Source of the DNA: Olsenella sp. An290
GTDB taxonomy: Bacteria > Actinomycetota > Coriobacteriia > Coriobacteriales > Atopobiaceae
Assembly (NCBI RefSeq): GCF_002159535.1
Contig: NZ_NFIU01000001.1
Span: 1-64,000, forward strand
Length of the DNA stretch: 64,000 nucleotides
Direction of reading: 5' to 3'
Positions within the stretch are counted from its first letter, which is position 1, and the number at the start of each line of letters is the position of its first letter. The position numbers and the translations under genes were made by a program. The notes below the pieces were generated by a model. It had not been told where the DNA came from and searched no databases. It saw nothing but the letters and a program-made list of their open reading frames with translations. Below are positions 35,017 to 41,000 of the stretch, in pieces.

Positions 35017-35853
35017 ATGGGCAGGCGGGACGGTGCGGTCGCGTTCTTTGACGTGGACGGGACGCTCGTGTGGCACGACTACGAGAAGCTGAGCCGCGTC
35101 AAGACCGAGAAGATCGACGCGGTGACGCAGATCCGCCCGACCGAGGCCGTCTTCGAGGCCTTCCGCCGGATGCGCGCCGCCGGGCACCTCACGTTCATCT
35201 GCACCGGACGCCCCAAGTCCTTCATCGTGCCCTCGCTCTACGAGCTCAACCCGGACGGCTTTGTGGCCGCGGCGGGCGCCCACGTGATCGTGGGCGACAC
35301 CGTGGTCCGGGACGTCTCCATCCCCGAAGACCTGCTCCGCGAGACCGTCGAGCGCTTCGTGGCCGCGGGCGTGGACCTTACCATCGAGGGTCGCGCCCAA
35401 AACGTCGAGCTCAGGCCGTCGGGCGCCCCGGCGCGCTTTGAGGGCTCGGCCGTCGCGCACTCCGTGGCCGAGTTCTTCGAGGTTGCGGGCGACAACCCCT
35501 TCTCCAAGTTCTGCACCAACGGGCTCACCCTCGCCGAGCTCGGGCCCGTGCTCCCGTTCTGCGAGGAGCACTACACCGTCGCCGACCTCCAGGGCGGCGC
35601 CTTCGAGTTCTCCCTCAAGGGCGTCAACAAGGGGACGGGCATCGAGGCCGCCCTCGCCTACCTGGGCCACGGCCGCGAGCGCACCTTCGCCTTCGGCGAC
35701 TCGGAGAACGACCTTCCCATGCGCGACGCCGTGGAGACCTTCGTGGCCATGGGCAACGCCCTGCCCCGCGTCAAGGAGTGCGCCGACTACGTGACCGACT
35801 CGGCCTCCCGCGACGGCGTCGTGACCGGGCTGGAGCACTTCGGGCTCATCTAG
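35017..35853 (+). CDS. Cof-type HAD phosphatase
   Basis: A 278-residue HAD-IIB hydrolase: motif I FFDVDGTLVW (about 10-19), motif II in FICTGRP, the C2-type cap in the middle, the lysine in SLKGVNKGTGIEAAL, and motif IV GDSENDLPM. Cof enzymes dephosphorylate sugar phosphates, flavin or pyridoxal phosphate; the substrate is unknown. The closing segments VAMGNALPRVKECADYVTDS are typical. Start chosen behind CGGGGGAG; a TACAAT -10 is 36 bases upstream. Confidence 0.92.
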   Translation: MGRRDGAVAFFDVDGTLVWHDYEKLSRVKTEKIDAVTQIRPTEAVFEAFRRMRAAGHLTFICTGRPKSFIVPSLYELNPDGFVAAAGAHVIVGDTVVRDVSIPEDLLRETVERFVAAGVDLTIEGRAQNVELRPSGAPARFEGSAVAHSVAEFFEVAGDNPFSKFCTNGLTLAELGPVLPFCEEHYTVADLQGGAFEFSLKGVNKGTGIEAALAYLGHGRERTFAFGDSENDLPMRDAVETFVAMGNALPRVKECADYVTDSASRDGVVTGLEHFGLI

Positions 35854-35909: not shown

Positions 35910-36758
35910 CTACGGCCTGAACCCCGAGTGCTCGCGCACGGCCCGCTGGAAGGCGTCCGCGCCGTGGCGGGCCGAGTGCCCCAAAAGCACGAGGAGCGTC
36001 TTCCCCGAGCGCAGGTAGGCGCGCCGGACCGCGCGGTCCACGGCGCCGGCGACGGGGGTGATGATGGAGAAGCCCGGAAACTCGCGCCGCGCCGCCTCGA
36101 GGGCGCGCTTGCGGCCCGCGTGGGCGCCGGACTCCTCCAGAAGGGCGCAGACCTGCTGCTCCGGCGAGACGAGCAGCTCAAGGTGGCCGGGCGTGCGGAC
36201 GTGGCAGAGGCGCTCGGCGGTCGTGGCGTCGTTTCTCCCCAGGAGCTCAATGACCGTGATGGCCGCGAGCGCGGCGTCCACGGCGCGCAGCCCCACAAGG
36301 GGCAGCACCACGTTGCCGGACCAGCTCGGCGCGTGCGCGCGGAACTGCACGAACCCAAAGCGCGCGGCCTCCCGCGTGGCGCCCACGTCGGCCCGCGGGC
36401 TCGTGCGCGAGAAGGACAGCGCCCGCCCCCGACCCGTGACGGTGCCCTCGCCGGACGCCCCGAGCGCGCAGAGGACGTCGCAGGCGCCGCGCGCCCGGCC
36501 GCAGGCCCCCACGGACTCGAGGAGGAGGAAGGGGAGGTTCTTCTCGGCGGCGTTTGCGAGGTGGACGTCAAGGCGCCCCAGCTCGGCGAGGACGTCGCAG
36601 TCGCGCAGCCACTCCGCCCCGTCGTAGGTCTCGTACGCGCCCACCACGCTCACGGACCGGTAGGGCTCGGCGCCCTCGATCACCGTCCGCAGCATCAGGG
36701 AGACGGCCGTCGCATCCTGCCCGGCCGCGTCGATGCCGATGACGGTGGGGCGCGCCAT
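35910..36758 (-). CDS. Degenerate MurE paralog without P-loop (probable pseudoenzyme)
   Basis: A 282-residue protein collinear with the MurE encoded immediately upstream, minus MurE's N-terminal domain. Shared landmarks: VGAYETYDG (39-47) against MIGTVETYDG; RALSFSRTSPRADVGA (112-127) against RTLTFGVGRPEADAWA; VRTPGHLELL (187-196) against TRVPGRMEFY; RAYLRSGKTLLVLLG (246-260) against RAFELAAPQRSVVLLLAKG. The ATP-binding GTKGKTT of MurE reads IDAAGQDAT here, with the Walker lysine lost, and the DDPW region and carbamylated-lysine segment are missing. The frame is intact and highly coding-like. ATG shares one base with the murE stop (TGATG), so it is translated with murE. A regulatory or structural partner of MurE is inferred. 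Confidence 0.72.
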   Translation of the reverse strand: MARPTVIGIDAAGQDATAVSLMLRTVIEGAEPYRSVSVVGAYETYDGAEWLRDCDVLAELGRLDVHLANAAEKNLPFLLLESVGACGRARGACDVLCALGASGEGTVTGRGRALSFSRTSPRADVGATREAARFGFVQFRAHAPSWSGNVVLPLVGLRAVDAALAAITVIELLGRNDATTAERLCHVRTPGHLELLVSPEQQVCALLEESGAHAGRKRALEAARREFPGFSIITPVAGAVDRAVRRAYLRSGKTLLVLLGHSARHGADAFQRAVREHSGFRP

Positions 36759-38281
36759 CAGACGGCGTGGGCCCGGTCGTAGGCGGCGACGCCGGCCGCC
36801 GCGAGCTCGGAGTCCGTTGCGCAGGGGACAAAGCCCGTGGCCATGTGCTGGGTCGCGTCGGAGCCCTTGGCCAGGAGCAGGACCACGCTTCGCTGCGGCG
36901 CGGCAAGCTCAAAGGCGCGCGCCACCGCCTCCTCGCGGTCCAGGACAATCTCGTGGGGGAAGCCCTCGGGAATCGCGCGCTCCATCTCGTGGCAGATGTC
37001 GAGCGGGTCCTCGGTCCAGGGGTCGTCGGTGGTGAAGATGAGGTAGTCGGCGTAGCGCGCGGCGACCTCGGGCAGGTCGCGACGGCGCTCCTCGGCCTTG
37101 CCGCCCACCGCGCCAAAGACCGCGATCACGCGCGCGCCGGCAAAGGTCCCGGCCACGGCGGAGAGCAGCGAGTCAAAGGCAAGCCGGTTGTGCGCGTAGT
37201 CAACGATGGCCGTCACCTGGCGGTCGGCGGTGCGGTAGAACTCCATGCGCCCGGGGACGCGCGTGCGCTCGAGCCCGCGCACGATGTCGTCGGCGCCCGC
37301 GCCGAGAAGGTGGGCCGCGAGGGCCGCGCAGAGGGCGTTGGAGACGCTGAACTCGCCGGGGAAGGGCAGCGACACGCGCCGCTCCCAGCCGTCCAGGTGC
37401 AGGGTGAAGGAAATGCCCTCCTCCGTGGCGGCAAGGTCGTCGGCCCAGGCGTCGGCCTCGGGGCGCCCCACGCCAAAGGTGAGCGTGCGGCCGGACGCGC
37501 GCGCCGCGGCCAGGACCCGGTCCGCGTGGTCGGTGTCAAGGTTCACCACGGCCGTCCTGCCCTGCGAGAAGATCTTGAGCTTGGAGGTGAAGTAGTCCTC
37601 GAAGTCGGCGTGCTCGACGGCGGAGATGTGGTCGAGGCCAATGTTGAGGAAGCAGGCCACGTCAAGCTCCACGCCGAGGGTGCGGTCGTACTTGAGGGCC
37701 TGGCTCGAGACCTCCATGACCAGGGCGTCGAGCCCGGACGTGCGCGCGTGGGCGAGGTGGCGCCAGAGGTCGGGCGCCTCAGGGGTGGTGTTGCGCGAGG
37801 GGCCGTCCTCGACGCCGTCGTAGGTCTCGACGGTGCCGATCATCCCGCAGCTCCCGAAGCCGTGCCAGGCGTCGAGGATGGAGCGGAGCAGGTAGGCCGT
37901 CGTGGTCTTGCCCTTGGTGCCGGTGATGCCCACGAGGGGCAGCGCCCGGTCGGGCCGGCCGAAGGCCTCCGCGGAGACGATCGCCATCGCTCGGCGCAGG
38001 TCGCTCGTCACGAGGGCGGGCGCGTCCGGCGCCAGCGCCGCGAGCTCGTCCGCGCGCGACTCGTCGCAGAGGTACGCCACGGCCCCGGCCGCAAGCGCGC
38101 TCGTGAGGAACGCGGGCCGGAACGCGGCCCCCTTGCAGACGAAGACGTCTCCCGGCGCCACGGCGCGCGAGTCGCACGCGGCGCCGTGGACGCGCACGTC
38201 GTCGGCCCCGGCCGTGGCGGCGCGGAGGATGCCCGCGGTGTCAAGGGCGCGGGCGAGCCCCGTAAAGGTCATCGTATCCAT
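36758..38281 (-). CDS. murE: UDP-N-acetylmuramoyl-tripeptide ligase MurE, probably L-lysine type
   Basis: Adds the third residue of the peptidoglycan stem peptide. The 507-residue protein has the N-terminal substrate motif DSRAVAPGDVFVCKG (37-51), ATP loop GTKGKTT (121-127), EVSSQALKYDR, FLNIGLDHISAVEH, the lysine in DYFTSKLKIF that is normally carbamylated, and VPGRMEFY. Where DAP-adding enzymes have DNPR, this one has DDPW in FTTDDPWTEDP. The lack of that Arg, and similarity of the NIGxDH...EHxxFEDYF segment to streptococcal lysine-adding MurE as I recall it, favour L-lysine. TATACT lies six bases before the ATG, so the mRNA may be leaderless. Confidence 0.93.
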   Translation of the reverse strand: MDTMTFTGLARALDTAGILRAATAGADDVRVHGAACDSRAVAPGDVFVCKGAAFRPAFLTSALAAGAVAYLCDESRADELAALAPDAPALVTSDLRRAMAIVSAEAFGRPDRALPLVGITGTKGKTTTAYLLRSILDAWHGFGSCGMIGTVETYDGVEDGPSRNTTPEAPDLWRHLAHARTSGLDALVMEVSSQALKYDRTLGVELDVACFLNIGLDHISAVEHADFEDYFTSKLKIFSQGRTAVVNLDTDHADRVLAAARASGRTLTFGVGRPEADAWADDLAATEEGISFTLHLDGWERRVSLPFPGEFSVSNALCAALAAHLLGAGADDIVRGLERTRVPGRMEFYRTADRQVTAIVDYAHNRLAFDSLLSAVAGTFAGARVIAVFGAVGGKAEERRRDLPEVAARYADYLIFTTDDPWTEDPLDICHEMERAIPEGFPHEIVLDREEAVARAFELAAPQRSVVLLLAKGSDATQHMATGFVPCATDSELAAAGVAAYDRAHAV

Positions 38282-38489: not shown

Positions 38490-38627
38490 GTTCTTCTCGC
38501 CCGGGGCCCATGGGGTGGAAATAGCATACATAGTTGTGGTCCAACCTGAAAAAACAGCCCGTTTCGGCCAAAATTTGTATGCTATTCGCCCCGGCAGCCC
38601 CGGGCGAGAAGCCCGGGCGAGAAGAAC
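38490..38627. repeat. 138-bp nested inverted repeat with AT-rich core
   Basis: Same plan as the element at 34416-34534: outer GTTCTTCTCGCCC (38490-38502) and GGGCGAGAAGAAC (38615-38627), with an extra CCGGGCGAGAAG copy directly before the right arm. Inner arms share AATAGCATACA (left) and TGTATGCTATT (right) around an AT-rich middle that differs in sequence from the other element. It lies between tRNA-Val and rph and holds no gene. Confidence 0.82.
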
Positions 38628-38649
38628 CCCCAACCGCAAAGGAGCCCCC

Positions 38650-39384
38650 ATGCCCAGCGAGCCCACCCGCTCCCACGACCGCGCCGCCCACGAGATGCGC
38701 CCGGTCACGCTGACCCCCGGCGTCATGAAGAACGCCGACGGCTCGTGCCTCGCCGAGTTCGGCGACACGCGCGTGCTCTGCTCGGCGACGGTGGAGGAGG
38801 GCGTCCCGGCGTGGCGCAGGGGCGCGCACGCGGGCTGGGTGACGGCCGAGTACGCGATGCTTCCCGCCTCGGCCAACCGCCGCACCCCGCGCGAGTACCG
38901 CGGCCGCAAGGGCCGCTCCATGGAGATCGAGCGCCTCATCGGCCGAAGCCTGCGCGCCGTCACGCGCCTCGACCGCCTGGGCGAGCTCACCATCACCCTT
39001 GACTGCGACGTCATCCAGGCCGACGGCGGCACGCGCACGGCCTCGGTCACGGGCGCGTGGGTGGCGCTGCACCAGGCGCTCGCGGGCCTCGTGGACCGGC
39101 ACCGCCTTCCGCGCCTGCCGCTCACGGGCCAGGTCGCGGCGGTCTCGGCGGGCGTCGTGGACGGGCGCGCCCTGCTCGACCTCGACTACCCCGAGGACTC
39201 CCACGCCGAGGTGGACCTCAACCTCGTGGGCACGGACGCGGGGCGGATCGTCGAGGTGCAGGGGACCGGCGAGCGCGCCTGCTTTGACCGCGCGCAGCTC
39301 GCCGCCCTCCTCGACCTTGGGCAGGCGGGCATCGCCGAGCTCCTGGCGCTCCAGTCCGCGGTCACGGGCTTCTCCCTCTCCTAG
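38650..39384 (+). CDS. rph: Ribonuclease PH
   Basis: A phosphorolytic 3' exonuclease that trims tRNA precursors. The 244-residue protein shows RPVTLTPGVMKNADGSCLAEFGDTRVLCSAT-type opening, GWVTAEYAMLPAS, the RNA-binding GRKGRSMEIERLIGRSLRA, CDVIQADGGTRTASVTGA and LDLDYPEDSHAEVDLN. Start behind AAAGGAG. In most bacteria rdgB follows directly; here a decayed glycosidase gene separates them. Confidence 0.97.
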   Translation: MPSEPTRSHDRAAHEMRPVTLTPGVMKNADGSCLAEFGDTRVLCSATVEEGVPAWRRGAHAGWVTAEYAMLPASANRRTPREYRGRKGRSMEIERLIGRSLRAVTRLDRLGELTITLDCDVIQADGGTRTASVTGAWVALHQALAGLVDRHRLPRLPLTGQVAAVSAGVVDGRALLDLDYPEDSHAEVDLNLVGTDAGRIVEVQGTGERACFDRAQLAALLDLGQAGIAELLALQSAVTGFSLS

Positions 39385-39520: not shown

Positions 39521-41000
39521 ATGAGAGTCAGAGGCAGGATGAGGCGCGCGTTGGTCCTGGCGGCGGTGACGGGCCTTCTTGCCCTGGGCCTTGCCCCCGC
39601 CGCCGCGCTCGCGCGCGACGCGGCGGGCGCCGAGCTCACGGCGACGGAGATGGCCCAGCCGGGGGGGCCGGGTCGAGCTGAGCTTCAACAACGACTGGCG
39701 TTTCTGGGAGGGGGCCCTGAGCGAGGGGGCCGCCGACCCTGCCTACGACGACTCGGCGTGGATCTACGTCAACGCGCCGCACAGCACGATCAAGTACACG
39801 CCCGAGAACTACTATCAGGAGGACCTCGGCGTCTTCTGGTACCGCCGGCACTTCTCCACCCCCGAGACCGTCCAGGACGGCCGGCGCGTGCTCCTCACCT
39901 TTGAGGGCGCGATGCAGAAGGCCGACGTCTGGCTCAACGGCGAGAAGCTCGGCACCCACGAGGGCGGCTACACGCCGTTCTCCTTTGACGTCACGGACCG
40001 CCTTGCCCCCACGGGCGAGAAGAACGTGCTCGCCGTGAGGCTGGACACGCGCCCGAGCGCCTCGTGCGCGCCGGGCAAGGAGAACCCCGACTTCCAGTAC
40101 TTCGGCGGCCTCTACCGCAACGTCTTTCTCACCGTCACCGACCCGGTGCACGTCACCGACGCCGTGTCGTCGCGGCGAGCGCGTGCACCTAAACGGCGTG
40201 AACCTCCACTCCGAGACCTACCTGCTCGGCAACGCCGTCTTCGAGGAGATCAAGCGCCTGCGCGAGCTTGGCTTCACCTTCGTGCGCATGTCGCACTACC
40301 CGCACTCCCCGGCCTTCTCCGAGGCGTGCGACCGCTACGGCGTGGCCGTGCTCGACTGCCTTGCCGGCTGGCAGCAGTTCTATGACACGGACGCCTTCAA
40401 GGAGAACACCTACCAGCAGGTGCGCGAGATGGTGCGCGCCAACCGCAACCACCCCTCGATCGTCGCCTGGGAGCCGAGCCTGAACGAGAGCTCCTATACC
40501 GAGGCCTGGGCGCGCGAGGTCAACCGCATCACCAAGGCCGAGTATCCCGAGAAGGGCCTGGCCAAGGCCTGGACCTGCGGCTGGAGGTACTGGAACGTCT
40601 TTGACATGGGCTGCGGGACCCCGCAGGCAAACGTCAACGGCGACGCCGCCACCTATGCCACCAAGCCCGTCATCGTGAGCGAGTACGGCGACTGGAACTA
40701 CGGCGGCTACGACTCCACCACGCGCGTCACGCGCGAGCCCGCCCACTACGCCGACGCCAAGGGCGGCGACGAGGGCATGCTCCAGCAGGCGGACAACGTG
40801 CAGGCCTCCTACGCCTGGAACCGCGAGGGTCGGGTCCTCGCCCGAGCCCACCCCGGACCCGGGCGAAGACCCGACCCTCGCGCCCGGGACCGATGAGGTC
40901 CCCGCCCCCGGCACTGCGGGCACCGCGCGGGGCACCCCTTCTCGCCGTGGGCCTCGCGGCGGCCGGCGCGGCCGTCGCGCTCCGCCGCGCCCGATGCTAG
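39521..41000 (+). pseudogene. Decayed surface GH2 beta-galactosidase-type gene
   Basis: Pieces of one secreted glycosidase lie in successive different frames. A signal peptide (RALVLAAVTGLLALGLAPAA) ends at a G run at 39661-39667. The next frame gives a GH2 sugar-binding domain (LSFNNDWRFWEG to FGGLYRNVFLTVTDPV, to about 40165). A third frame gives part of the GH2 barrel from ERVHLNGVNLHSE through the acid/base region EPSLNESS and nucleophile region VSEYGDWNYGG (to about 40825). A Pro/Asp linker and then a hydrophobic segment with RRAR tail close it in two more frames. The middle Ig-like domain and everything after the barrel are deleted. At least four frame changes and two deletions rule out a single sequencing error. 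It resembles the two live surface enzymes in its end structure. Confidence 0.88.

Follow-up and report, generated by a model that had tools for sequence, protein, structure and literature searches.

A conserved MurE-derived pseudoenzyme encoded directly behind murE in Thermophilibacter/Olsenella (Atopobiaceae)

The window, i.e., the whole stretch of 64,000 nucleotides of Olsenella sp. An290 DNA which was analysed, carries on its minus strand a murE gene (36758..38281). Its product of 507 amino acids contains the P-loop GTKGKT, the KLKIF lysine motif and the third-residue loop DDPW. A gene for a protein of 282 amino acids, designated PAR in the following, lies directly behind it on the same strand (36758..35910, stop codon included). 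The stop codon of murE (TGA) and the start codon of PAR (ATG) share one base in the sequence TGATG (36756..36760, minus strand), as the original prediction for this DNA had stated, and this junction suggests translational coupling of the two genes. PAR residues 8–17, encoded at 36708..36737 (minus strand), read GIDAAGQDAT where MurE has GITGTKGKTT, and mark the position of the former P-loop. PAR faces a convergent gene on the plus strand (35017..35853), which we take to encode a HAD-type hydrolase. Upstream of murE a divergent gene follows on the plus strand (38650..39384), presumably rph for RNase PH, with its likely start within the open frame 38515..39384. Farther along, at 39579..40896, two overlapping frames resemble two parts of one gene, presumably of glycoside hydrolase family 2; this gene may therefore be frame-shifted.

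Homology between PAR and MurE is beyond chance. Pairwise blastp yielded an E value of 2e-7 at 26% identity, and tblastn within the same genome matched PAR to murE in two stretches, which were in the same order (E 4.4e-9 and 9.6e-4). Comparison of a PAR profile with a MurE profile gave a probability of 100% and an E value of 6e-42 over 233 columns. An alignment of 77 rows bears out the ordered blocks of similarity which the original prediction had noted. When a profile of 16 orthologs (see below) was compared with the sequences of solved structures, the top match was a mycobacterial MurE (8g6p, E 2.7e-6). An AlphaFold2 model of PAR, obtained with a 16-row alignment (A1), had a mean pLDDT of 90.7 and a pTM of 0.87. 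Foldseek ranked MurE of M. tuberculosis first for this model (2wtz_A, E 1.1e-12). VIA-align 2 was run over the 1000 best chains from Foldseek and superimposed the model on T. maritima MurE with a Z score of 22.9 and an rmsd of 2.9, 267 of the 282 residues being aligned; further matches were PAP11, a chain of the plastid polymerase (Z 22.6), MurC (19.5), folylpolyglutamate synthase (19.3) and MurF (19.3). A missing structural match to Mur ligases had been named as evidence against the original prediction; the match is clear. PAR thus is a MurE paralog, cut down to the central and C-terminal domains of the Mur ligase fold, which are both present according to the model and the structure and profile comparisons.

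Scanning of the window PAR against Pfam gave zero families at E ≤ 1, and against NCBIfam only murF, for which it reached 12.1 bits while 288.6 is the cut-off; no family cut-off of Pfam, NCBIfam or PHROGs was exceeded. Separate Pfam scans of the 16 PARs produced weak matches only, with a best E of 0.022 and no family matched by more than three of the 16 members; Mur_ligase_M was matched weakly by two (best E 0.066). A search of plasmids with PAR returned zero matches.

The 77-row alignment consisted of 60 MurE and 17 PAR rows. PAR starts about 107 residues into MurE, P4 being aligned with P110, and the N-terminal UDP-binding (uridine-binding) domain is missing. The P-loop GTKGK[ST] is present in all 60 MurE rows and in none of the 16 PARs. 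The third-residue loop (DNPx/DDPx; DDPW in murE of the window) is a gap in the majority of PARs. These three losses had been predicted and were found as described; two others go beyond the prediction. The Mg-binding stretch of some 40 residues, which in MurE contains the DH motif and the lysine that becomes carbamylated, is again a gap in most PARs, and the substrate loop NTTP is missing as well. Altogether, changes or deletions affect the motifs NTTP, VSSQ, DH..EH..DYF.SKL.IF, DYAHN, GGK.ERR, DDP and AKG. Judged from the alignment, PAR is devoid of the known motifs for the binding of ATP, Mg, substrate and amino acid.

In the 60 MurE rows, 122 columns are conserved to at least 95%. Of these, 20 fall within the N-terminal part which PAR lacks and 102 beyond it; 19 of the 102 are retained among the 16 PARs of the genus, at a level of at least 80%. 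Seven PAR positions are fixed to a residue other than the conserved one of MurE, including G124->D15, R345->H192 and D361->E208. D15 is invariant in the 16 PARs at the position of an invariant glycine of MurE, and R345 and D361 are residues which, as we assume from Mur ligase structures, touch ATP. C97, H192, E208 and D15 are all conserved among PARs, and 56 columns are invariant across the 16 PAR sequences.

A survey of murE neighbourhoods, as had been proposed, covered 31 genomes of the genus (Thermophilibacter/Olsenella, Atopobiaceae); in 16 of them, some belonging to gut bacteria, murE is followed immediately by a PAR ortholog. All 16 start codons are located between −8 and +9 nt from the stop codon of murE, and this junction is kept beside either of two types of murE (type A in four PAR genomes, type B in 12; see below). 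The frames are open throughout, the other 15 being 40–57% identical to the window copy, and the 16 proteins form one clade in the tree (support 100/100). When 140 genomes of the family were scanned and matches listed at E ≤ 1e-15, these 16 were accompanied by one remote relative, which occurs in a different genus (genome G112; E 1.8e-52). All further matches, from E 6e-37 onwards, lay in open frames of at least 415 residues, and the 60 rows read out were MurEs with a P-loop. At the level of the class, full-length matches at E ≤ 1e-15 occurred in seven of 197 genomes, all of them genus members, and a scan of named genomes gave 13 loci in records with Olsenella, Thermophilibacter or Atopobiaceae in the title, T. 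mediterraneus and T. gallinarum being among them. Where the genus lacks PAR (15 genomes), a convergent HAD match follows 0–197 nt behind murE in 10 cases; in five, the piece examined contained none. Since several genomes are incomplete bins, a few of the absences could be gaps. PAR is thus a real, conserved pseudoenzyme derived from MurE, with a narrow distribution.

The murE loci of the 31 genomes (among L053-L081) encode two types of MurE. Type B, with at least 68% identity to the window MurE, is present in 21 genus genomes including that of the window, and type A, with 53–58% identity, in 10; the types found beside PAR are 50–58% identical to each other. In rows where the pattern was found, the third-residue loop reads DDPW in type B vs. 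EDPA in type A, which perhaps reflects a different third amino acid of the peptidoglycan peptide. One MurE was detected at E ≤ 1e-40 in 30 of the 31 genomes. A second, divergent one (L110, contig 117) occurs in genome G010, where contamination of the bin amounts to 5%; it shares 48% identity with the window MurE.

An rpoB tree was constructed for 29 genomes, G010 being excluded as doubtful and G011 having no returned locus. On this tree the presence of PAR required four changes, compared with 9.9 for shuffled labels. The type of MurE, which is scattered over the tree, required six, only slightly below a shuffled mean of 7.9 (40 of 500 shuffles were as low). Between genomes G013 and G024 the RNase PH sequences are 90% identical, those of PAR 70% and those of MurE 52%. 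Type B MurE was also found in a genome of another genus (G088), a genus-mate of which (G087) has type A. For three PARs of the genus which were compared, the nearest MurEs were not of type B, with 37–40% identity at best. The simplest reading of these sequence data is that murE was exchanged at a fixed locus while the PAR behind it stayed put; loss of one of two former murE copies could lead to the same picture. Apparently, then, an essential gene of cell wall synthesis was exchanged between types.

The relative in G112 (L082:2674-3708) is also a MurE derivative without P-loop and with similar deletions, and is situated away from murE, between genes which we take to be mfd- and rlmI-like. The maximum-likelihood tree grouped it with the other PARs (100/97), both on long branches. 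When the 16 PARs were omitted, it moved next to MurEs from its own genus (SH-aLRT 92; 51% identity), and this position was not rejected by the AU test (p 0.16). In view of the long branches and this p value, one or two origins have to be considered: the protein would be either a member of the PAR family or an independent, parallel case.

Selection on PAR was estimated from the 22 closest pairs, in which dN/dS was 0.24–0.45 and hence below 1, as had been expected. MurE gave 0.10–0.30 in the 15 of these pairs which share one MurE type; the other seven compare type A with type B, and their MurE values (0.59–0.77) were excluded from this range. In most pairs with a single MurE type PAR has the higher dN/dS of the two proteins, so its constraint is moderate and weaker than that on MurE. 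Differences by codon position were 0.12, 0.10 and 0.27 (six pairs). A single intact frame is a weak argument in such a GC-rich genome, since in a neutral simulation along one branch of mean pairwise length the frame stayed open in 1190 of 2000 runs; the case for selection therefore rests on dN/dS. Absence from close relatives combined with relaxed selection had been regarded as speaking against a functional protein; the former was observed (15 of the 31 genus genomes), while the gene is under purifying selection where it is present. Lost catalytic residues and dN/dS below 1, the two marks of a pseudoenzyme paralog under selection, occur together in PAR. The gene does not give the impression of a pseudogene in decay.

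The loss of the catalytic parts, the well-kept fold, the moderate purifying selection and the constant junction point to a non-catalytic protein which is made together with MurE. The likeliest function of PAR appears to be a non-catalytic one, exerted at the MurE step or close to it, although we would assign it a probability of only about 0.4. PAR would be produced by termination-reinitiation behind MurE; its binding partner would be MurE or some other protein of the precursor pathway, and binding would tune activity, stability or channelling. As two types of MurE occur beside PAR, any contact with MurE must be made through a surface which the types share. The old ATP site may have been rebuilt around the new invariant residues D15, H192 and E208, which replace G124, R345 and D361 of MurE, and could lock the two domains in one fixed state. 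Homology and fold, open frames in spite of the lost motifs, the junction with either murE type and the dN/dS values all agree with such a role. Several results argue against it or fail to support it: nearly half of the genus genomes manage without PAR, murE was apparently exchanged beside it without its loss, the G112 relative lies away from murE, and constraint is only moderate. Moreover, no MurE column separated genomes with PAR from those without it better than shuffled labels (top value 0.33, shuffled median 0.33). A read-through chain of MurE and PAR from genome G017 was folded with a mean pLDDT of 84.3 and a pTM of 0.63, about what is expected of two parts without fixed orientation; this was a weak test, since the PAR part had only three alignment rows. 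The observation behind the original prediction is confirmed as real and was largely correct in its description. Its interpretation, a pseudoenzyme which modulates or stabilises MurE, is partly supported: homology, loss of motifs, adjacency to murE and selection agree with it, and support for modulation or stabilisation itself was sought and none was found. The more specific proposal that PAR is co-translated with MurE, binds it (or the MurD-E-F line) and controls the ligase, while tolerating two divergent MurE types, is offered as tentative.

Since neither the fused fold nor the MurE columns lent support, and since two MurE types are involved, considerable weight has to be given to a role independent of MurE. 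PAR could be a repurposed protein with the MurE fold, e.g., a binding protein with a rebuilt pocket, and its position a remnant of tandem duplication. Differing murE types beside closely related PARs, the lack of co-varying MurE columns, the pTM of 0.63 of the fused chain (with its shallow alignment), the location of the G112 relative and the PAR-specific invariant residues would all fit. The start codon, however, is held close to the stop of murE in all 16 genomes, whichever type precedes it, and we consider an independent role possible, though somewhat less probable than one at or near the MurE step. That PAR is still an enzyme, with other, ATP-independent or trans-complemented chemistry, could be read from the conserved H192, E208, D15 and C97; with the known catalytic motifs of Mur ligases gone, it is improbable. 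About as improbable is an effect on translation or dosage, in which the coupled frame would protect or tune murE mRNA and the protein itself would be of little importance; the tight junction would suit it, but amino acid constraint, 56 invariant columns and a confidently modelled fold would not be expected. Least probable is a slowly decaying, functionless duplicate, which would account for the patchy occurrence, the faster evolution than that of MurE and, given the simulation, the open frame, but hardly for dN/dS of at most 0.45 in all 22 pairs, 16 open frames of 16 and differences concentrated at third codon positions.

Mur ligases are essential enzymes and serve as drug targets. A natural, selected dead fragment of MurE would show a surface of the enzyme which is addressable without touching the active site, and one genus, having members with and without PAR as well as both MurE types, offers a natural experiment for a direct test of the idea. 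The original prediction knew of no description of such a pair, and none of a MurE pseudoenzyme was found in the open-access literature, judged partly by title and start of abstract, with most subscription journals lying outside the search. No other pseudo-Mur-ligase regulator in bacteria is known to us, nor any citable case of control of MurE by a protein partner.

Among known systems, MurE itself (UDP-MurNAc-tripeptide synthetase, TIGR01085; for the S. aureus enzyme see PMC3829189) shares the central and C-terminal fold with PAR and differs by its N-terminal domain, P-loop, NTTP loop, carbamylated-lysine segment and DDPW loop, none of which PAR possesses. MurT of MurT/GatD, according to PMC6085368, has Mur-ligase-like central and C-terminal domains and is one half of a two-gene pair. 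PAR resembles it in its domains and may likewise be one of a pair, but is not MurT: there is no MurT_C match in the window PAR (E ≤ 1) or in the 16 members, the window PAR has no P-loop, and MurT_C is matched elsewhere in 30 of the 31 genus genomes. At one such locus (L163; G000 contig 16, 1-4500, minus strand) a single open frame of 757 residues appears to join MurT to a part which we take to be GatD; in 28 of the 31 genomes the MurT_C match lies in a frame of at least 722 residues, the L163 frame alone having been read, and the literature search found no paper on a MurT-GatD fusion. CwlM, a non-catalytic regulator of peptidoglycan synthesis which acts on MurA, is comparable in concept, since here too a Mur enzyme is tuned by a protein without catalytic function, but it is of unrelated fold and not derived from the enzyme which it controls. 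The plant protein PAP11, larger (539 residues in 8r6s_Q, 768 in the deposited sequence) and uncoupled from murE, is structurally close to the PAR model (8r6s_Q) and, as PMC9456514 indicates, is a MurE homologue within a protein complex, being a subunit of the plastid RNA polymerase.
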